Source: Acanthamoeba sp. SK_2022b (taxonomy: Eukaryota > Discosea > Longamoebia > Acanthamoebidae). Taken from it: DNA of 64,000 bases. How positions within the stretch are numbered: the first letter of the stretch is position 1; each line of letters starts with the position of its first letter. The stretch is from positions 124,001 to 188,000 of the forward strand of contig JANDJZ010000045.1 in the NCBI GenBank assembly GCA_027943245.1, read 5' to 3'. A program made the translations under genes and the position numbers. Shown here one piece after another: positions 44,629 through 63,344 of this stretch. The notes beneath the pieces are model-generated. The model saw only the letters and a list, made by a program, of their open reading frames with translations, was not told the origin of the DNA and ran no database searches.

Positions 44629-46574
44629 ATCTTGGTAAACAATTTTTATTTCGGGCTTCGCGTTGCATTTTCTGGGGCTTGGGGGCCCAATTTCGGGCCA
44701 ATTCCACTGTCTGGGAGTAGTGGGTATCGCCCTCTGAAAACCAAGTCTTTTGTGGTTTGTGGTCGCATCACTTAGAGACTTTCTTCTTCATCTCTATCTG
44801 CGTGACACCTCAACAATCAGTGCTTCTGAAGCAGCAAGATTGAGGTGAGCTGATCTGTGAAGCATAGCCCTGAGATTTGGCATGAAGTCACTGCAGTTAA
44901 AAAGCGTGTTGGATCTAGGGATGTGCATTTCAAGCTTAGAGGAAAGACAGGTGGTGCACTTGCCATGGCTTACCGTTGATATCCAGTCCTAGGTTGGCTT
45001 TGCATTGGCAAACACCAATACAAAGACAGATTTTTCCAGCCTTGGAATGATCTTTGCAGTGGTTTCTCTCTTCCATTTGTGTGATTACAACACCAAACCC
45101 TCTTCAGCCTTGAGATGACAACAAGAAGGAATGCCCACCCCAGCTGGTTTTGTTAAACCATCTGTAAATTTAACTTCATGTGCTCTCCACATGCCAGTGA
45201 GCCATTGAATCACCAACCACAGCACCATAGCCTATGGAGACCAGGGACATGATCCATGGCCTGCTGTTCAACTTCCTGCTGGGGTCAACCAAGGCGACCA
45301 TCAATGAGCTGCTCTTCAACTTGCTCAGGGGCAAGGAGCCCTTTTCATTGCACCATGCTTAGGAGCATGCCCAAGCCCACAAGAAGGGCAACTACAGCTA
45401 CCTCTTCTCAACCAGTTTCCACAAACATGAGGAAGCAAAAAGCACAGCAAATGCTGTGGCAAGGGCATTGTCTCCCTTCTCTTGCATGACCATGCTGTCG
45501 CTTCCCACCTTGGTGGTGGTAGCAGCACATCCAGGTGTATCCCAGATATTGAGTTGAGGAGAATTTTGGCTGTTTTCTAGTTCTGTGTAGTGCAGGTTCA
45601 TTGTCTTGCTTCTTTGCGCTGGGCTTTCCTAGCTTCTTCCCTTGCTACACCATGCTGTGGTAGGATACTGTTTGGGGGAGTTGGAAGGTGTGGCATTGCT
45701 TGCTTTCTTAGGAGGGCTGTAGTTATTGTGAAACTTATGATTGTGGCTGGGTCCAAGATCTTGGTTTGTCAGATGGCACAATCAGCAGCTTTGCACCTTT
45801 TCAACTGGGATGGACTTTTGTTCTCTGCCAATGGTTTCATCTTATTGGGCCTACTAGGAACATAAGCCACAGCTGCATGGACGCCAAAAAACAAAGGTTG
45901 CCCCACATGAGCATACTTGCATGCTTAAGCATGCTGGGCCTCAGCTGATTCATCAGTTATAGCATAGAATCCTCTACTCTCCTGCATCAAAAATGCAGTT
46001 TCCTACTATTATTCCAATCTGAAGATTTTGACAACATAAAATATGAACATTTTATCAGAGAGGAGTTGAGGGTCATTCAAAATTAAAACACTTGAATAAA
46101 TCTTTGTTGTGCTCAATTTCTATGCCCATGAAAAGTAACCTTAGGTTCATGTACACCTGATTATTGGTTGGTTAAAAAATCAATAATGGTACTTTTTGCA
46201 CTTAAATCACAAAACTACAACCAATTTAGTAGCTTTGAACCCTGACCATTTGCAAAAAGTACCATTGACTTTTTAACCAACCAAAAATCTGGTGCACAGA
46301 AGAAGTGGCATGTACAGAGTATGAAGGGTAACGTTGGGCCATGTACATGCATTTTTGGTTCATCAAATGGCACACTTTATCCTGCTTAACGCTTTTCTCA
46401 TGGCATGTCCTCTGTATCCCAGACTTATCTCAATCCATCTCTTTGCCGAGCCACACAAGCTAATCACTCCAATTGGAACTGAAAGAGGATGTGTATCTAT
46501 TTATGTTGGGCAGCGACCCTGGCGGTGCTTCGCCTTAAAATTGAGACACTGCTCGTTCAGCCACTCTCATCTTG
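44629..46574. other. Gene-free AT-rich stretch
   Basis: Nearly 2 kb without a credible gene, AT-rich for this window. Between about 45250 and 45490 a frame reads like decayed coding sequence (MIHGLLFNFLLGSTKA then LLFNLLRGKEPFSLHHA, stop, EHAQAHKKGNYSYLF), possibly a transposon remnant. A 130-bp hairpin element sits at 46162-46290. Confidence 0.45.
46162..46290. mobile_element. MITE-like inverted-repeat element
   Basis: Left arm 46163-46200 and right arm 46251-46288 are inverted repeats with a few mismatches (left ATTGGTTGGTTAAAAAATCA, right ends in TTTTTAACCAACCAAAAAT), separated by a 50-bp loop. It has no coding capacity. Clear target duplication not seen. Unrelated in sequence to the elements at 29874/30246. 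Confidence 0.6.
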
Positions 46575-47106
46575 CTAATGCTGGTCGGAGTGGTGTCTCC
46601 GGAGCATCCCGTGCCCATCGGAGGAGCTGCCATGGCGATGTAGGGTTTCGAGGTCAATACTGAACCTTTCCTTGACGTAGGGCGTGTAGACGTCCTCCAA
46701 CGGCTCATCGCTGAGGTGCTCCCGTAACTTGCCGACCTGCCCAGAGAGCAGAATAAAGAGGGTGAGCTGAATGAGGTTCATCGCTATGGACGAGCTCTGG
46801 TGGAAGCCTACCAGGTGCAGCCGATCAGGGTGGGAGCGGAAACGGTGCCAGGCATCCAGAGAGATCCATGTTTGCGTGGTGAGGTGCTTGTGCTTGTGCT
46901 CCACCGACCACAGGTGCTCGCTACCGATGAAGCCTGTAAGGGGTGAGTGCTAACATTTCATGCACAATAAACAAGGGTTGGCAGCGCGAACCATCAGCAT
47001 TCAGGGCCAGCTTTCGCAGGTCGCGCATGTGCGTCAAGAACCACGCCTCGGAGCCCTCCTTCACCCACCTCACAATGTTGGTTCGCACGAAGCCGGGTCT
47101 CGCCAT
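46575..47106 (-). CDS. Small protein with ABM-like (dimeric alpha-beta barrel) domain
   Basis: Two exons, ATG 47106 to a stop at 46575, about 150 aa. The central part reads LRKLALNADGFIGSEHLWSV, then a Trp strand (TTQTWISLDAWHRFRSHPDR). This order (helix, GFI-x-x-E, strand, W-x-S-x-x-x-x-W-x-x-x-x-x-H/S-P) is the pattern of antibiotic-biosynthesis-monooxygenase-type barrels. N-terminal MARPGFVRTNIVRWVKEG is basic and could be a mitochondrial leader. A C-terminal hydrophobic stretch (AMNLIQLTLFILLSGQVG) and an acidic tail follow. The fold assignment is from pattern only; function unknown. Confidence 0.55.
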
Positions 47107-47304
47107 GGTATTGTGCCTTGTTGTCGCGACGCACAGACACCTAGATAATTTATGATAATGTATGATGCCTAAGAATCGTGGAATGTCGGCTGAAATGTCA
47201 ATGAATAGTGGCTCAAGTGCCCGCGGCAGCTATCCGGAGGGACCAAACTTTTACTGCGCTAGCACAAAAGACAAGAGGCGGGAGGAGGTCAGGACAGAAC
47301 TCCA

Positions 47305-50300
47305 TCACTCCATCAACATCTCAACATGGATGTTGGGCGGCGGAGCTGCGGTGATGAAGGCCAGCTTCCGATTGCTGAGCAGTGGGTCCTTGGCTTGACC
47401 GGACAGTGAGGGCTGTCGCTTGGCCGCCAGGCCGACGGCCTGGCCGGCGATGCCCGACCCCGATCCGCCACCGGGCATCTCACCCGCGCCGCCCGCGTAG
47501 AGGGCCGACTCCGTGCCGGACGAAGACAGCGACGCCGTGGCGGCGTCTCGCTCCTTGTCCTTGTCGTCCTTGAAGTAGATGTTGGCCTGGCCTTCCCTGA
47601 GCCCGTCGCGCCACTTGCCTTCGAACTTCTCGCCCGACAATCCATTCACCCACACACCGGCGCCGTGCAGCTGCAGATCCGAGGGTGGCCGCGGGTGGTG
47701 AGATCGCAAAAATCCCAAGCAAAATTCGAAAAATACCAAAAACACAAGTAATAATAAAAATAATAATAATGATAAACACCGTGACCAGCAGATGACCGGA
47801 TGAGCGAGTGAAGTGAGAGGGAGGGCGGCAACATACGACGTCCTTGCGGAACTGGCCGTCGTAGGTAGAGTTGTCCGAGAAGGCGGCCTTGCCCTTGCCG
47901 TTCCGCCTGTCGTTCTTCCATTCGCCCTCGTACTTGATGAGGTACCCGGTCTTGGCGGTGTAGGTGCCCATGCCCTCTCGCACGCCCTTCTTCCACTGCC
48001 CTACATACATGCTTCCGTCCGCGTATCGCATCGTTCCCTGTGCATGCGCAAGACGTGCAAACGGTCATGTTAGTGGCTTCCCTCCCTCACTCGCTTGTGA
48101 AGAGGTGGGCGCGTACGGTGCCCTCGCGCTTGTCGTTGACAAAGTCGCCCTCGTACACGCCGTCGGCGTTGGTGAGCGTGCCGAGGCCGTGCTTCTGGTC
48201 GTTCAGGTACTGTCCCTGGTATTCCTCGATCATGAAAGACGAGTCGTGCTTCAGGTACTGCTTGTACACTCCTGCTCACCATTCCCCGGCCCTCCCCAAG
48301 TCAGCGTTTCTTCCCAAGCGCCACGCGCCATGTACAACGGGACCGTACCGATGCCATCGCGCTTGCCGCTCACCCACTCGCCTGAGTAGGTCTTGCCCGC
48401 CGGCAGCGTGAGGTGGCCCTTGCCGTGGAACTGCGCGACCGGTTGCTTAGTAAGTTGCGATAGCGCCTGCTGCCGAAGAGAGGGCGGGTGTTCGAACCTT
48501 GCCGTCCTTCCACCCTCCGGCGTACTGTACACCGGTGACACCAATGAACTGGCCCTGGCCATTGGGACAGTTTTCGGCCCAGTTGCCCTTGTAGACGTCA
48601 CCGTTGGCGAACGTCATGTCGCCCTTGGCGTGCCGCTTGCCGTCCTTCCAGCCGCCGGTGTACTTGGCGCCCGTGGGGTAGACCATCGCGCCAGCACCGT
48701 CTGCGCCGAGCAGAGAGATCGAAGTTGAATTGATAATGTGCGGTGAAACATGTGGGAGAAGGCGAACGCACTCTGCACGTCGTCCCTCCAGTCGCCTTCG
48801 AAGATCTCGCCGGTGGAGAAGACCATCCTACCGTAGCCGCTCTTCTTGTCCTCGCTGAACTCGCCTTCGTAGGTCGACCCGTGCACCTTCATCACACCCT
48901 TGCCATCTATCTACTCGCAGCCCAACGCAATAATGATGAGCAAGCGAGCCGACGATGCTCGGCTCTCTTCAATAGATGGCCGTCGCGCTTTAAACAGGGA
49001 GGCGCATGGTACCATGCCGCTTCGCCAGTCGCCCTCGTAGTAAACCGAGTTACGGAATTGGAAGACGCCCCAACGACGCTCGCCCAATTCCTGAACGGAC
49101 CGGTGCAGAAAGGAGTCAGAGAAACCAAGAAAGACAGCGGAGAGACCCGTTATCTGTGTCATGCAAGAACATGCGTGCCTTGTTGATGGGGTGCTGCTGG
49201 ATGTTCTTAGCGCCTTCCATGGCGTTTCGGATCTCCCTGAGCCATTGGGCCTTTTCCTCGGCCGTGTTGACCTTGATGTTGTACACCTTCGAAGGACCCA
49301 TTATGTCGAAGAAGTACTGATTCTTCTTATCTGTTCTCATGTGCACGTGTAAGTGCGCCCGCGCGTTAGGTCCGCCGCGTGCCAAAACTCTACTTCGTGT
49401 GCGCCGCGCGTGTGCGTGTGCGAGATTATATAAAGAGAGGAGACGCGCGATGGTACCGAGAGAGGGATCGTCCTTGAGCCAGACCAGCTCTAGCGGCCAC
49501 TGGAACTCCTTCGAGTCGGCGATGGCCTTCTTGCCCAGCTTGGACAGCTTGGACTAGACAAAGAGAGAAGTGGAGCGGCGTTAAGTCGGCGAATTCATCG
49601 GACAAAGTAGGGCGCCCGGCAACGGCGGTACCTTGGGGAAGGGGACAAGGATGTCATTGAAGATGAGGAGCTGCAGCTTGCCGCCGCCTACCGCAGCGGT
49701 GGGCAGCTCACCCTCACGCAACAGTCTCCTGTGCGCGGCCAACAGTCCTTGCTGCTCATTGTTTGGGCCGATAGGAGGAGGCAAACATCATCAGGCATCA
49801 CTGCCTGTCACGTGATCTGGCGAGGAGAGGGGCGCGTACGAAGGTGGAGTGGGTCGAGATCTCCAGCAGTCGCTGCTGCTTCTCGTACTCGTGCAGGCCC
49901 TTGTCGATCTTCACGGCGACGTCATCAACCTAAACAGAGGGAAAACGATGTCGCGTGAGATGGTGAGGAGTTTCAGCCTTCCGGGGAAGTAGAAGCTGAA
50001 GTCTGGGAATACCTTAGCAAGCGCTTGCTTGAGGAGGTTGTGATCGGGATGTTCCTGCGGGGTATGTCTGACCATGTCCTCAAGCAGCAGCTTGTATCGG
50101 GGGATGCGCTGGATGGGCATGATCAAGCAGGCCTCCACTCGAATGTCGACAAGCTCGTCCAACTCCTAATCAGTATAAGAGTGCAAAGTTAAGGGGGGCC
50201 AAGAAAGCGGAAAATGGGCGGGCAGCCGCATTCGTATAAGTTTGGTGGTAGGGCGACTGTAGTACCCTGACTTTGTTGCCGAAGGCCTGATCCTTCATGA

Positions 50301-55118: not shown

Positions 55119-58100
55119 GTGTCTTTGGCGTGGCGTGCAGGTCGTGCCAGCGCAGATGGGAGCGACTGCAATCGTGCCGCGCCTATTACAGGTCGCCCCG
55201 AGAGATGAAGAAGAGAGAAGTACGTCTCTGTCTGTCTGTGTCACTCGAGCCTTGTCAAATATCGCTTGACTTTCCGATCCTGGGATCTCCTCAACCTGAT
55301 GGATGGTGGTTGTCCCCCCCCCCCTTTTTCCAGAGGATGATCAGCGCGAGCCGCAAGCGCCCTTGGACTGAACAAGAGGAGGCCAAACTCATGCGGGAGG
55401 TCGCCAGGCGGGGACTCCACTATGACAGCGGTACCGTGTCCTCCCCCGGGCTTGTCTTATCATGCGACTTACTGTTTTGCTGTTTTGTACGCGCGTGATG
55501 GCTCGATTGTTCGCACACAGAGCTGTGGGTCGAGCTGGAGTCCAAGTTCAGGCGGTCCGCGGGGGCGCTGCAGCTGCGTTGGTCGGAGCTGCACAGTCAG
55601 AGAGGCCGCGCCGTGAGCCTCAATAGCGACGACCAAAGCAGGTACGGCCCTTGCCTCCCTCCCTCCCTCCCTCTCTATCTCTTCGCTCCATGAGACTCGC
55701 GTGGCGACTTGTGACATCTCGGGTGTGTTTGGGGGGGGGGTCACCTCAGTGATGACTTTGACTACACGAAAGGGAAGGGGAAGAGGGGCGAGAGAAGGAG
55801 GAGGAGGAAGAAGACCGGTAAGGGGGGCGATGCATTGAACCGCAGGCGAAGTCGAAAGCTCGCGTTCCAATCGAGTCAGGAGGTCGACGCCTCCGCCGAG
55901 GAGGAGGAAGAGGAAGAGGAAAAGTCTTCATCAGATGAGCAGGAGCAGGAGCAGAAGAACAAGCGTCGACAAAAACGAGCTGGGGACGACGGAGCGGACG
56001 ATGGCAGGAACAAAGGCAAGGGCAAAGAGAAGGTCGGCGATGACGACAAGGATGAGAGCACGGACGAGCGGGAGCGGCGCAAGGTCGACAAGGCCCTGGC
56101 GCCCAGGCCTAGTTCCAGCTCGAGCTCCAGCTCGAGCCAGCAAATGGCTCGCTACCGCCGAAAGCAGGTGCAGGATGTCGATGATATCCAGGACGACGAC
56201 GACGACGAGAAGAAGAAGAAGAAGGCTAAAGGAGCGACCAGGCGTGAGGCGAGCGGCAACGAGGAGGAGGGCTCGCCCTACATCAGCCTCGACGAAATGG
56301 ACTACCCCGCGGTCCAAGGCCAGGACTCTCCCCATATCGAGTGGCCCACTGTTGGTGAGGACGGCCGTGATGACGTCAGCGGCGGCGTATGGCAGGACGT
56401 CGCCGACAACGACGGTGACGAGGAGATCCCCTGGGACGGAAGGTCAACCGCCAGAGAGGCCCAACCAACTCTCGACCGAGCGGACGAGGAGCAGGACGAC
56501 GAGCTGAAGGTCGAAAGAAGAGTCGCATCGCCGCAGGTATTGGAGGAGGAGGAGGAGGCCAGCGACGACGATCTCGTTATCATCGAGGTGGACTACCCTT
56601 GTCCCCCGAACGAACCGACCAGTCTGCACAAGCCTGCGGGCGACGACAGGCAAGAAGAGGCGGAAGAGGCGGAAGAGGAGGAAGAGGACGAGGGAGGGGA
56701 AGTGGGCGAAAGCAGTGAGGAGAGGAAGGAGAGGGAGAGGCTACAGGCAGAGAGGCTTCACGCGTGGGTGGAGCGTCAGCGCGAGTTGAACCTCGAGAAA
56801 TACGGCCAGCGGACGCTCTCTCCCAGGCTCGCCAGCAGGACTCTGCCGCGGCCGAACAGGCGGAGGCGCACAATCGCCGGAGAACATGAGGAAGAAGAAG
56901 AGCTGCAGCGCGAGCGTGCCGAAACCAGCGCCGAAGGAGCCCCACGTCACGGCGACGTCGACAAGATGAGACGACGGAAGCCAAGACGCACGATCAGCAC
57001 AGACCTTGCCGCGCAGGAGGGGGAGGGCGTTGACGATTTCCTCATGGGGCGGGACCGCAAGCGGCGCCGAGGGCACGAGAGTGCAGGCGAGGGGCCCGAC
57101 GGGGTGAGGAGTGAGGAAGAGCGGCGCAGCAAGCGAGCGCGCACCGACTCGGCGATGGACGAGAACGGCTGGGCGCCCGTTGTCGTCAATGCATTCCGAG
57201 GCTGCGAGGGCGAGGGCGAGGGCGAGGGCGAGGGCGAGGGCGAGGGCGAGGGCGAGGGCGAGGGCGAGGGCGAGGGCGAGGGCGAGGGCGAGGGCGAGGG
57301 CGAGGGCGAGGGCGAGAGAAGCAGAGAAACGGCGGAGGGTAGGGACCAGGAGGAGGAGCGGGAATGGGAGATGATCGCCCACTTAGAGACAGTCGCCCAC
57401 GAGAGAAGGGAAGCACTCAAGGCCAAGCGCAGACGTGCCCACGAGGAAGCCGTAGTCGGCGACGACGAGACCGCGGAGACCGAAGAGAGGGAGATTATAG
57501 AACGAATCGAGAGCGCGGTAGCCAAGAGGAAGAAGGCGGTCGACCGCGCCAGGCTCGAGCGAGCGAAGACGGCCGACAATTCCGAATGGCATGTCGTGTA
57601 CGGCGACGCGTACGAAGTCGAGGGCCAAGGCGCCGCCGAGAAGGCGACGATGAGCCGAGAGGCGCGGAACGAGGAGAGGAGACGAACCGAGCGCGACGTG
57701 ATCGCCGACATCGAGCGAGCGGTGCGGCGACAGCGGCGCAAGAGCCTCCAGGCCGAGCACCTGCGTGACCAGCGCGAGCGAGATGCGGCGGCATGCGCCG
57801 AGCGGCAGCGTGAAGCCCAGCTCGAGGTCCGCGAGCAGACGGTCAAGATCGAGAAGCTGCTGACCAAGAGGCGGCGCAGGCAATCGAGTCTAGGCCTCCC
57901 CGTTTTGGAAGGCCCAGGCCAAGCAGGCGACGGTGATGACGGCATGGACGAGCTTGAGGAAGACGTGGATCACACAGTGAAAGAGCTGAGGCGTCTGGTG
58001 GAGCGCCGCCGCCGCGAGCAGGAGGCGAGGAGGAGACAGCGACTCGAGGACGAGCGACGACAGGAAGCCGAGAGGCGTGTCCGGGAGGCGGAGGAGCGCA

Positions 58101-58144
58101 AAAGGGTCGAGCAGCTGCACCGCTACTGGCACCAGCGCGGTTGA
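53713..58144 (+). CDS. Chromo-barrel / SANT (Myb-like) protein with long charged simple-sequence arms
   Basis: A tiny first exon (53713-53748, MVRKKRASRMST) splices to 53825-53884 and then to 53944. Exons 2-3 give a chromo-barrel (Tudor-knot) domain as in MSL3/MRG15/Esa1: VAHDEEYEVQVLRTRVVNG then FVHWVGWGAEHDEWIPSANV. A long Lys/Glu/Gln tract (54197-54512), then a SANT/Myb repeat LRKPWTAHEVSQLEEAAEEA, WTHVASRLGNRTPKSCQRRW split by the (TG)n-containing intron. A second Myb-like unit: KRPWTEQEEAKLMREVARRG and ALQLRWSELHSQRG. The final exon (about 55750-58144) is some 800 codons of Glu/Arg-rich coiled coil with an acidic centre and an EG repeat (57206-57313). It stops TGA 58142-58144. Probably a chromatin reader; methyl-lysine binding not confirmed. 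Confidence 0.82.
54197..54512 (+). repeat. GAGAAG/GAGCAG coding repeat (Glu-Lys/Glu-Gln tract)
   Basis: A nearly pure purine run of about 300 bp inside the chromo-barrel gene, coding for EKEKEQ-type repeats. Homopurine mirror symmetry makes it a candidate for triplex (H-DNA) formation. Confidence 0.9.
55061..55117. repeat. (TG)28 microsatellite in chromo/SANT gene intron
   Basis: Lies between the exon ending GNRTPK and the exon starting SCQRRW, shortly after the donor. Confidence 0.95.
57206..57313 (+). repeat. (GAGGGC)18 coding hexanucleotide repeat
   Basis: Eighteen exact GAGGGC units, coding for (Glu-Gly)18 in the last exon of the chromo/SANT gene. The coding strand shows repeated GGG runs with 3-nt loops, a G-quadruplex pattern. 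Confidence 0.95.
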
Positions 58145-58518: not shown

Positions 58519-61026
58519 TCACGCGCCGTGCGACACGGGGTTTTTCTTGACCTTCTTGGCCTTCTGTCTGCGGTGGCTGTCCTCTTGATCTTCATCGACG
58601 TCGGTGTCGGCCTCCTCGGCCATCTCCTCGAACGACTGCTCGATCACAGCCTGCGCGACGTTGGTGAGGCCGAGCAGGTTGAGGAAGCGCACGACCTTGC
58701 GGTCGAGCCACGCCTTGTTGGGCATTGCCGCGAGCCAATCCTTCGGCAGTGCCGAGTACCCGTAGCGCGCTCCCCACAACGCGCCGCACACAGCACCGTT
58801 CCTGGTCGTTTTGTCAATGTGAGTCGGTGAGGCAACGAGGCGCAAGTGAGGAGAAGGCATACGTGTCGGCGTCACCTCCCTCGCGGATGAGCAAGTTGAT
58901 CATGTGCTTAAAGTCGCTGGACGCGCACAGGCCCCAGAAGCCCGACCCGACACACTTAAACGTGTAACCTATCTTGGACGCAGCGTCCAGCTCGAGGCTA
59001 TGCAGGCTGGCCTCCGAGGCGTCGCGCTTGATGTGTTGCTTGAACTCCTCCTCATATTGCGGCTCCAGCAGCTGCATGTCGTGCCACGTTGTCGTGTCAT
59101 CAGCCCAAGAGCAAAGACAAGTGCCAACTGGGGAGCGCGGCATACCTTGAGTCCATGGGCGACGGCCTCGTCGATGAGTTGCTGCAGACGCTCGCCAGAC
59201 CACTCGACGTCGTGGCGCTGGAGCATCATGGCGATGGCGGTGGCGGTCGCCACGGAGCTGGCCAGGCACCGCGAGTCAAAGTGAGTGACCTTGGCGATGC
59301 GGACGGTGTTGGCGACGACCCGGTCGAGGTCGTCGTGGTCAAGGATGCCCAGGACAGACGTTCGCATGACCGCCCCGTTGGGCGCGGCGTTGCGGTTGAG
59401 CCTGATCCAGGCGGCCTCGGCCGCGGCGTGCGGATCTTGCAGGAACTGCGGATGGTACACGACCTGAGCCGTGGTGGCGCCCAGCCCCATGCCCGACGCG
59501 TCGCCCAACTCGGGGAAGCCCCGTTCAATCCACCGCTGGCCATGCGCGACTGGGTGAGTGAGGCGCACAGCGTGATGCAGCGAAATGTGTCGCAGAAGGA
59601 GTAATAACGGTGGAGGCTGCGGTACCAGGAGCTTGGCTGCATAGCGGTGCTCGTCGACGGAGCCGTTAAGCTCGAGGATCGTCTCCAAGATGAGGATCAT
59701 CTGGTCGCTGTCATCGGTCCTGTGATATTGGTGTGGGGAGCAGTGTCCGCTTGATGAGCCATGGTCATGCAAGACACCTGTGTGAATGCACAGAATCTCA
59801 AGAGGGCGCCTACCAGTCGCCCCGCTTCCAGCGTCTATTGTGGGCGTTGAGTTGGTAGTCGGGAAAAGGCACGGCCTCGCTGCCATACACCCGCTGGATC
59901 TGCTTCTTGTTCATAAACTCGGTGGCTGATGATGCAGATAAAAATATAAAAAGTAGAAAGAAATATCAGTTAAAATAAAGCCCAGGCAAGGATGACACAG
60001 AGTGGATGAGGAGTGGCAACAGGCGCAAAAAGGAGAGGCCGCTTACCGAGCCCAACGGCGTCCCCCAGGCAGTTGCCATAGATGCAGCCGAGGATGCGAT
60101 CGATCTTCTTGTCGGCCAGCACCGACTGGTCCAGCTCAGCAAACCACCACGCGTCCTCGCCCGGCGGCCCCGACGACGAAGTTGACGACGACGACGGCGT
60201 ACCTTCCGCGTCCGTGTTGGGGACCGTCACGAGCTGGACTGTTGACGGCCAGTGGTCGCGAATGAGTCAAATATACCTAGCGTGAACGATCGCACGAGAG
60301 AGCGTACTCTCTTCTAGCGCAGCCTCACCGATGACCTTCCGCTCCTCGAATGGAGCACTGCCGAACTTGGCCTCGTGCAGAGCCGCGAACAAGGGCCACA
60401 GTTCCTGCAGGACGCAAGGCGTGTGTGAGACCCACATTCGCGGATGGGCGAGCTCCTCCAAGCTCGTATCCTTTTTTTTTTGGTGTGGACAGTCGTACTC
60501 TTGCAACGATGTAGCTTTCGCATTCGTAGCACCAGAACGACAGGTCGGAGAAGCTGTGGGCACGGCACGGTCCACAAAGCGTTGCGTTGTCCACGCGCAT
60601 TTCGAGTCGAGAAAAACGGCAGGCTGCCGTCAGCAGGCAGGTAGGCAGAATTACCTGCAGTTGATGGCGTGATGGGACTGCTCATGGTGTGCCGCTGCGT
60701 GTCCGTTGACGTAGCGGCTGCAGAAGACGCCGTAGCAGCCCAGGCACAGCCAATTCTCGCCAGCGTGCCCGCAGTCAATGCAGCCCCATTCCAGCAGCTC
60801 CGCTGCCCACAAGGTTAAGGTTAGGATTCCTTGCTCAGGTCGTTATTATTTGACTTTAACGCACCATCAACAACGAAGTTGGTTGGCTGTGCATGGACAT
60901 GAGTCTTTACGTGTGGGCAGTCCCTCTTCGGCTCCCTGTGTAAAGATTGTCAAGAACTATGCAAAAGGCAAAGATCTGCAGCGGCCAGTACACCGAAAAT
61001 CCAGCAAGGTCGTCATCCTGGTTCAT
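58519..61026 (-). CDS. ZnF-UBP domain fused to ADP-ribosylglycohydrolase (ARH)
   Basis: Likely start ATG 61026 (MNQDDDLAG). Exon to 60865 carries RDCPHVKTHVHAQPTNFVVD, phase-matched to exon 60802-60655 (ELLEWGCIDCGHAGENWLCL, GCYGVFCSRYVNGHAAAHHE), exon 60553-60499 (FSDLSFWCYECESYIVAR), exon 60404-60329 and exon from 60238. Together these give a full ZnF-UBP: CPH, CxxC, CxxC, Cys, three His, CxxC; the ubiquitin-tail pocket residues (Trp in ENW, Arg in SRY, Trp and Tyr in FWCY) are kept. The ARH domain starts RILGCIYGNCLGDAVGLATE, has WTDDSDQMILIL (Mg-binding DD), PNGAVMRTSVLG, and the second metal motif EGGDADTNGAVCGALWGARY across an intron. It stops at 58519. The first exon and its splice site are the weakest part. 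It should bind free ubiquitin C-termini and cleave ADP-ribose bonds. Confidence 0.85.
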
Positions 61027-61561: not shown

Positions 61562-61784
61562 CTGGTCAGCAGTCATGCTGGTTGGCAGTCGTGGCCATTG
61601 GTTGGCGGTCTTGCTGGTCAGTTGGCAGTCATGCTGGTCAGCAGTCAGCATTCATGCTGGTCAGCAGTTGCAGCCATTGGTTGGCGGTCATGCTGGTCCA
61701 CAGTCAGCAAGCATGCTGGTTGGCAAGCACACTGGTCAGCAGTCTTGCTGGTCAGACTGGGCAGCGGTCAGCAGCCATGGCTGG
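61562..61784. repeat. GCTGGTCAGCAGTCA-type minisatellite
   Basis: Imperfect tandem copies of about 15-30 bp built from CATGCTGGTCAGCAGTC and GGTTGGCGGTC, inside the mariner-like element downstream of its transposase (3' side). Confidence 0.8.
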
Positions 61785-61830: not shown

Positions 61831-63344
61831 TCATGACACCATGATCTGCAGCATGTTCATGCCACTACCAAAGAACAGAGCCCACTCCTGCTGCCAGCAC
61901 ATAGATGCTGGCTCAAGGTCATTGAAGAGCTCCAGGTGTAGTAGCTTGCCGCAGAAGGGGAGAGTGTTGGCACACTGGTTGTAGTACCTGGCAACGTGAG
62001 TGGAGTAGTGCACAGCATTGTTGGCTGTGATTGTCGCCAGACCCTCTCTGATGGCCTCCTCAAGCCCAGCACAGTTGGAGAAGGTAGCCCACCACACATA
62101 GGCCTTGATTTTCACAAACACATACTCAATGGGGTTCATGAAGGGGGAATAGGGCAGGAGGAAGAGGTGGCAGATGCCTTGGTTCTGTGTGGAGACAAAG
62201 AGAAGGGAGGAGCAAGTCAGCATGCACACCCACACGCACACACACACAACAAACAAGGGGAGATACCTTGAGCAGCTCAAGAGTCACATGGATCTCATTG
62301 GTGTGATGGATCAATGCATTGTCAAGGAGGATGAGCACGTTCTTGGGCAGCAGTGGTAGGAGGTCAAGCAGGAAGAGGCAGAAGTCATCTGCTGTCATCC
62401 CACGCTTGCCCTTCTCACAGCTATGGACAAACTTGTGAAAGATCATCCCAGTCTTGCACAGGGCAGCAATGAGGGTCACGTTGTTGCCCTTGGGCAGCAC
62501 CAAGAGCCATGCTGGTGTGCCCTTGAGCGAACAGCCCTTTGTGACACGCACATGTAGATTGCTGGGCATCTCATCAATGAAGACAAGGGGGCAGCCCATG
62601 AACTCTTGCATGCGATTCACAACAAAGTCATACCATTGCATCTTGACCAAGTCTGTGTTCCATTGCTCAGGGATGATGATGAGGTCCTTGTACAACACAT
62701 CCACAGTCTCAAAGATCCTCTCAAGCACACATGTCCTTGCCACACTGCATGTGGAGGTGGGCAAGGATGTCCTTGAGGGTGAGCCATGGCGTGGCCTCAA
62801 TCCAGTCAAGGATAAGAGCCACATCCTCACCATCAAGCTTGGGCTTGGGACCACAACACTTCTTGGTCGGCCATGGTGGAGCGTCATCACCAAGAGCAAG
62901 GGCCTGCTCTTGGTCCTCCTCATCTTGTGCAGCTCGTGAGATGCAATGCGCTGAAGACAAGGAGATGTTGTAGGCCTGTGCTGCCTCTGTTGGGGTCATC
63001 TCCCCCCTGAGCACCTTCTTGCCAACAAGGGCTCACACTTCCTCACTGATCATCTGCTTCCTCACACCTTCCTTGGGTGGTTCTATCCCAGCCACTTCCT
63101 CTCCTCATGTGGCAACCAACTGCACCAGCGCTTCTTTCTTCCTCTCACTTGCTTCCACTTGTGTGACAAGCATGCGGAGCTTCTTCCTCTTCCTCTTCCA
63201 CTTCTCTGTGAGCTGGTCGTTCTCCTTGGAGACTAGCACCAGTGCCTCTTGTGGGTGGACATAGGGTAGCTCAATGGAGGTGGGGGCGTTGTGTGGCAAG
63301 CTGTGGTGGAGCTCATCCTCGCTCAAGATCTCTTCGACGTTCAT
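61831..63344 (-). pseudogene. Broken Tc1/mariner-family transposase
   Basis: Begins ATG 63344 (MNVEEILSEDELHHSL) and ends TGA 61831. An HTH-like segment (VLRGEMTPTEAAQAYNISL) precedes the DDE core: LVFIDEMPSNLHVRVTKG (first Asp), NVLILLDNALIHHTN (second Asp) and LPYSPFMNPIEYVFVKIKAY (Glu). A GT-AG intron of about 85 bp lies between ELLK and NQGICHL (62185-62270). It is broken by two in-frame TGA codons (near 63096 and 63033) and a frameshift near 62725. The two stops could each come from one C-to-T change in a CGA Arg codon. It is unlikely to make a working enzyme. Confidence 0.87.

Follow-up and report, generated by a model that had tools for sequence, protein, structure and literature searches.

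Can a reader of ubiquitin tails and an eraser of ADP-ribose be carried by one polypeptide? The question is raised by a locus in a stretch of 64,000 nucleotides of Acanthamoeba sp. SK_2022b (assembly GCA_027943245.1, contig JANDJZ010000045.1, positions 124,001 to 188,000), which as a whole we call the window. On its minus strand, at 61026-58519, lies a gene of 11 exons whose spliced sequence of 1665 nucleotides encodes 554 amino acids (aa) and a stop, and which joins a ZnF-UBP finger to an ADP-ribosylglycohydrolase (ARH) domain. Judged from its sequence, the fusion is real: a single gene for a single protein. We consider it reasonably likely that this single-chain enzyme is a ubiquitin-tail-guided ADP-ribosylhydrolase, probably of the arginine type.

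Both halves were identified by Pfam. The zf-UBP domain (PF02148) covers aa 43-101 (E 1.9e-15; 57.3 bits against a curated cut-off of 22.7), and ADP_ribosyl_GH (PF03747) covers aa 179-482 (E 2.3e-62; 211.7 bits against a cut-off of 26.2), matching positions 1-287 of a profile of 287. All 10 introns are GT-AG and 56-121 bp long, and the phases agree at every junction. An earlier sequence-only reading of this locus had given the coordinates and strand of the gene correctly and had joined five exons in phase; the joining stands, but five exons are insufficient and 11 are needed, with ZnF-UBP in exons 2-5 and ARH in exons 6-11. The domain-architecture search which that reading had proposed was run, and both Pfam domains were found in 20 of the best 120 of 575 matches to the joined protein (P0122 and P0130, described below, were added later). 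The best of the 20 is P0002 from Balamuthia, with 58% identity to the joined protein over 90% (E 9.1e-192), and six others (P0005, P0008, P0011, P0013, P0022 and P0026) come from transcript assemblies.

Could two adjacent genes have been misread as one? The gene structure was predicted from DNA alone. Eight of the 10 exon junctions align clearly with relatives; at the other two, 2/3 and 5/6, the sequence is variable and the alignment loose. At junction 5/6, where the finger side passes to the ARH side within the variable linker, the join therefore depends chiefly on phase, on splice sites and on the absence of a start codon; P0002 shares EER...QL at this point. Between Met1 and Met197 there is no methionine, and Met197 already lies just beyond the catalytic Glu195, so that a separate downstream ARH gene would lose this residue. 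Given this lack of an internal start, the in-phase GT-AG exons and the two-domain relatives, some of them from transcript assemblies, we rejected the two-gene artefact, which is hardly credible.

What could the finger read? All 12 Cys/His positions which we take, by alignment, to be zinc ligands are present in the window protein. The pocket residues W53, R65, Y66, W92, Y94 and Y99 are the same as in HDAC6, and the earlier description of complete zinc ligands and a ubiquitin-tail pocket stands. Across 22 aligned rows, the window protein and 21 relatives (P0022 and P0028 begin too late for W53 and R65), W53 is conserved in 17, R65 in 18, W92 in 21, Y94 in 18 and Y99 in all. In the predicted structure of P0002 the finger fits HDAC6-ubiquitin structures, and its best structural matches are HDAC6, in which R1155 and Y1184 mediate ubiquitin binding according to passages of PMC13292185. 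HDAC6 and the window protein both tie an eraser to a ubiquitin-tail reader. In HDAC6 the eraser is a deacetylase, whereas here it is a predicted ADP-ribosylhydrolase, and Pfam at E 0.001 found zf-UBP and ADP_ribosyl_GH in the window protein and no deacetylase domain. HDAC6 has its finger at the C-terminal end (PMC13292185), and the window protein at the N-terminal end.

Several points weigh against a ubiquitin-tail reader and would suit a finger which reads another C-terminal peptide or partner and merely localises the hydrolase. Residue 64 is Ser here and Gly in HDAC6, and one fused subgroup has lost Arg and Trp from the pocket. Among the aligned relatives, P0070 and P0073 lack both this Arg and the first Trp; P0076 lacks the first Trp. 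Yet the window protein and most relatives retain Arg, both Trp and the Tyr residues of the pocket as well as the zinc ligands, and we regard a partner other than ubiquitin as quite unlikely. As an observation apart, the metagenomic fused ARHs P0070, P0073 and P0130 keep the Cys/His positions but no longer have the first Trp or the Arg of the pocket; their finger may be a reader with a changed ligand.

The ARH half contains a two-metal site (TDD, DxDT) and a catalytic Glu, at E195, T231-D233, D458, D460 and T461; both metal motifs noticed in the sequence-only reading, TDDS and GGDADTNG, are present. Glu195 and TDD are kept in 22 of the 22 rows, and D458, D460 and T461 in 21, the exception being P0107 of Actinia tenebrosa, which ends early. 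This fused protein model stops before the second metal motif; either the gene model is truncated or the protein is inactive. The TH motif, invariant in an 18-sequence alignment, takes part in ARH catalysis, as stated in part of PMC9503650.

The predicted structure of P0002 fits the MJ1187/DraG structures. Among PDB matches MJ1187, 2cwc, Tri1 (presumably entries 6dre/6drh) and DraG rank above ARH3. The fold scores do not tell ARH3 and DraG apart. Profile comparison of the relatives P0002 and P0122 placed Tri1 and DraG first. The same two relatives scored below both equivalog cut-offs: 70.4 and 74.2 bits against 337.05 for DraG (TIGR02662), and 84.6 and 70.4 bits against 490 for Tri1 (NF041672). 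DraG has the ARH fold, the two-metal site and the profile match in common with our protein, at a score far under its cut-off, and Tri1 is an ADP-ribosylarginine hydrolase and immunity protein; to our knowledge neither carries a finger. By these comparisons the nearest ARH kin of known activity are DraG and Tri1, not ARH1. ARH1 and ARH3, named in the earlier reading, belong to the same superfamily and have the same fold. From the similarity to DraG and Tri1, the window enzyme is probably an arginine-type ADP-ribosylhydrolase.

How would the two halves act together? The finger would bind the free C-terminus of ubiquitin or unanchored ubiquitin chains and bring the hydrolase to sites with free ubiquitin ends, in parallel with HDAC6, which ties a deacetylase to the free-ubiquitin-end signal. 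Passages of PMC7659471 describe ZnF-UBPs as recognising free C-termini, and HDAC6 as recognising the ends of unanchored chains at aggresomes. The linker of about 30-45 residues is predicted to be disordered, both from sequence and in the predicted structure of P0002, and its flexibility could bring the active site within reach of many faces on the bound ubiquitin or on a neighbour. The ARH would then remove mono-ADP-ribose, most likely from arginine, either on ubiquitin itself or on proteins found with free ubiquitin chains, such as those of aggregates and aggresome-like bodies. Since human ARH1 acts only weakly on ubiquitin carrying ADP-ribose, with activity seen only at 10 uM enzyme (PMC10951314, in part), targeting by the finger could matter. 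The genome of this amoeba gave 31 PARP-domain exon matches (E 0.001 or better), so endogenous ADP-ribosylation is likely; the ART (PF01129), DTC (PF18102) and MavL-like (PF16062) profiles, used for host partners, gave no match, and their controls were likewise silent. The mechanism is plausible and testable.

How widely is the pairing distributed? When a profile built from 18 of the 20 two-domain proteins served as query, two further proteins with both domains came up, P0122 from Capsaspora and P0130 from a metagenome. A finger model built from the family matched 27 of the 160 proteins across both match lists, truncated ones included. The named carriers are Balamuthia, which is the best named relative among the matches listed, Pelomyxa, the sea anemone Actinia and Capsaspora; a Physarum transcript (P0022, by entry name) is a carrier too, with a truncated finger. 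Among the matches listed, many of them without a full name, none is labelled Acanthamoeba. Balamuthia P0002, Pelomyxa P0010 and Capsaspora P0122 have the same two-domain pairing as the window protein, P0010 with a long additional N-terminal part, and all three bear automatic names only, with no described function found. Another fusion, of leucine-rich repeats with ARH, was noticed in P0041, P0135, P0139 and P0151 (Balamuthia, Anaeramoeba and unnamed sources).

The phylogeny of the ARH domain was evaluated from 77 rows taken from 241 domains of sufficient length: 27 fused (window included), 36 unfused, picked as named or transcript-derived, and 14 bacterial. P0079, with a weak finger match, was dropped, and a first tree of 80 rows, which had one very long branch (L001), was rebuilt without it. 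The window ARH groups with P0002 and P0003 (support 96), label changes number 11 over the 27 fused rows, and the approximately unbiased test rejected one clade of all fused ARHs (p 4.3e-6). The fusion is either old with repeated loss or recurrent, and the tree fits either. Five proteins of metagenome contigs (P0070, P0073, P0130, P0134 and P0145) fall inside the eukaryotic ARHs. None of 80 bacterial ARH loci (the best 80 of 92) matched the finger model, though 7 of the 80 had fewer than 450 bases before the ARH, too few to reveal a finger, and viral contigs gave two distant ARH-only matches at 22-25% identity. A second gene of this type was sought among the 14 ARH exon matches of the window's genome, the check covering those outside contigs C530 and C188: L001, L002 and L004-L008, with 1.5 kb flanks, had no finger-model match.

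The same finger was found on sirtuins. With the finger region of P0002 alone as query, 18 of 154 candidates were returned: three fused ARHs (the query among them), 14 proteins that combine zf-UBP with SIR2, and one further SIR2 protein in which no zf-UBP was called. This search covered proteins of about 298-949 aa, with HDAC6-sized proteins outside, and missed most of the fused ARHs known earlier, and therefore it is not a ranking of all ZnF-UBPs. Within this size range the ZnF-UBP and SIR2 proteins, such as Pelomyxa P0161, are close kin of our finger outside the ARH proteins, with a sirtuin instead of an ARH as catalytic partner. Pocket residues W53, R65, W92 and Y99 are intact in all 15 SIR2 rows, namely the 14 database proteins and L014 from the window's own genome. 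There, on contig C437 (L014:1030-2296; 44970-48101), zf-UBP and then SIR2 matches lie on adjoining reading frames, and the genome seems to encode a ZnF-UBP sirtuin. It carries GVWTL, a motif conserved in class IV sirtuins according to part of PMC7376869, and is class IV-like; the ZnF-UBP and SIR2 pairing recurs in Pelomyxa and in environmental proteins. In a finger tree of 40 rows, with one long row (L009) at the root, ARH and SIR2 labels interleave with nine changes each, but only one is forced by the starred branches, so that each pairing could have arisen once. When Legionella infects Acanthamoeba castellanii, 65% of 17 sirtuin genes go up, and bacterial growth falls on silencing of sir6f (PMC7468528), which is only a lead because the passages concerned name no ZnF-UBP.

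If the finger serves sirtuins as well, then we can ask: Does the ARH act on O-acyl-ADP-ribose or O-linked (serine) ADP-ribose, clearing products of ZnF-UBP sirtuins or PARPs at shared sites? ARH3 hydrolyses serine-ADP-ribose and O-acetyl-ADP-ribose (PMC11668277, in part), and ARH domains are said in part of PMC9503650 to act on the O-acetyl-ADP-ribose made by sirtuins. The joining of the finger to SIR2 in 14 of the 18 matches, and seemingly in this genome too, the PARP exon matches and the fold scores shared by ARH3 and DraG point the same way. Against them stand the first places of Tri1 and DraG by sequence and the PDB ranking above ARH3, and we hold such substrates to be unlikely. A broader and more speculative scheme, improbable in our estimate, would be a eukaryotic NAD+/ADP-ribose pathway directed by ubiquitin tails. 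One ZnF-UBP reader would there be joined to sirtuins, which could write mono-ADP-ribose or release O-acyl-ADP-ribose, and also to the ARH eraser, so that the two enzymes work at shared sites marked by free ubiquitin; both appear to be encoded by this amoeba.

Is ubiquitin itself the substrate, cleared of ADP-ribose that pathogen effectors, or some unknown transferase of the host, have placed there? Carriers as distant as Pelomyxa, Capsaspora and Actinia indicate no single pathogen, and the finger on sirtuins speaks for targeting in general. Besides, no host enzyme that ADP-ribosylates an arginine of ubiquitin is known to us, no search aimed at one having been made. On the other side, modification of ubiquitin side chains, for example at Arg42 or Thr66, is described in part of PMC11668277; it leaves the tail free, so that the finger could hold the modified ubiquitin, and a targeting domain would help where ARH1 is weak. 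We see ubiquitin as a possible but rather doubtful substrate. The Legionella-directed role suggested by the sequence-only reading finds no support, the pairing being widespread and the fused ARHs falling into more than one clade. A general role in defence is conceivable: bacterial immune systems have been predicted in which ARH domains are central and reverse the ADP-ribosylation by invaders (PMC9503650, in part).

That reading knew of no described protein with this pairing. Literature searches on ADP-ribosylglycohydrolase together with ZnF-UBP or HDAC6, and on UBP with sirtuins, macrodomains and domain architectures, returned no paper on it among open-licence papers, although such proteins are already in public databases under automatic names, e.g. 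'ADP-ribosylglycohydrolase [Balamuthia mandrillaris]'. It is a new pairing of known parts, undescribed as far as these searches reach. The passages of PMC9503650 deal with systems of viruses and bacteria and say nothing of a ubiquitin reader, and the direct cross-talk of ubiquitin and ADP-ribosylation listed in part of PMC11668277 involves DELTEX ligases, CteC and Legionella effectors. If our proposal is true, a eukaryotic enzyme would connect the two systems in one chain. As a candidate the protein is conserved and open to experiment, with a mutable pocket and a separable hydrolase, and the occurrence of the pairing in other eukaryotes suggests that two protein-tagging systems are linked in a way little studied so far.

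The exons are listed below. Both metal motifs are interrupted by introns, W|TDDS at junction 7/8 and GGDAD|TNG at 10/11. Exon-wise identity to Balamuthia P0002 ranges from 7/24 (exon 2) to 15/19 (exon 4), and GFSVEPK across junction 1/2 recurs in relatives despite the short exon 1.

Exons of the ZnF-UBP and ARH gene, in window coordinates
Feature	Position	Strand	Content
Exon 1	60992..61026	-	start codon at 61026; aa 1-11; 35 nucleotides
Exon 2	60865..60935	-	first zinc ligands C18 and H20 (CPH)
Exon 3	60655..60802	-	ZnF-UBP core: C43, C46, W53, C55, C58, C63, R65, H70, H74, H80
Exon 4	60499..60553	-	ZnF-UBP end: W92, C93, Y94, C96, Y99 (ubiquitin-tail pocket)
Exon 5	60329..60404	-	end of finger region, linker start (basis includes predicted structure of relative P0002)
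Exon 6	60047..60238	-	Ser/Pro-rich linker, ARH start; without methionine
Exon 7	59814..59925	-	catalytic Glu195 (ATEFM) and Met197
Exon 8	59626..59719	-	first metal motif TDDS
Exon 9	59146..59535	-	ARH core including TH motif
Exon 10	58863..59071	-	ends within second metal motif GGDAD
Exon 11	58519..58801	-	remainder of second metal motif (TNG), end of ARH, tail that is first acidic and then Lys-rich, stop

Ahead of the gene start the window contains imperfect tandem repeats of 20-23 bp (61569-61668) and, on the minus strand at 62126-62992, an open reading frame with a DDE_3 transposase domain (E 4.2e-9). On the other side, 18.8 perfect copies of GCGAGG (57204-57316) encode a Gly-Glu run inside a charged open reading frame of 809 aa (55715-58144), which lies on the plus strand and is directed toward the gene.
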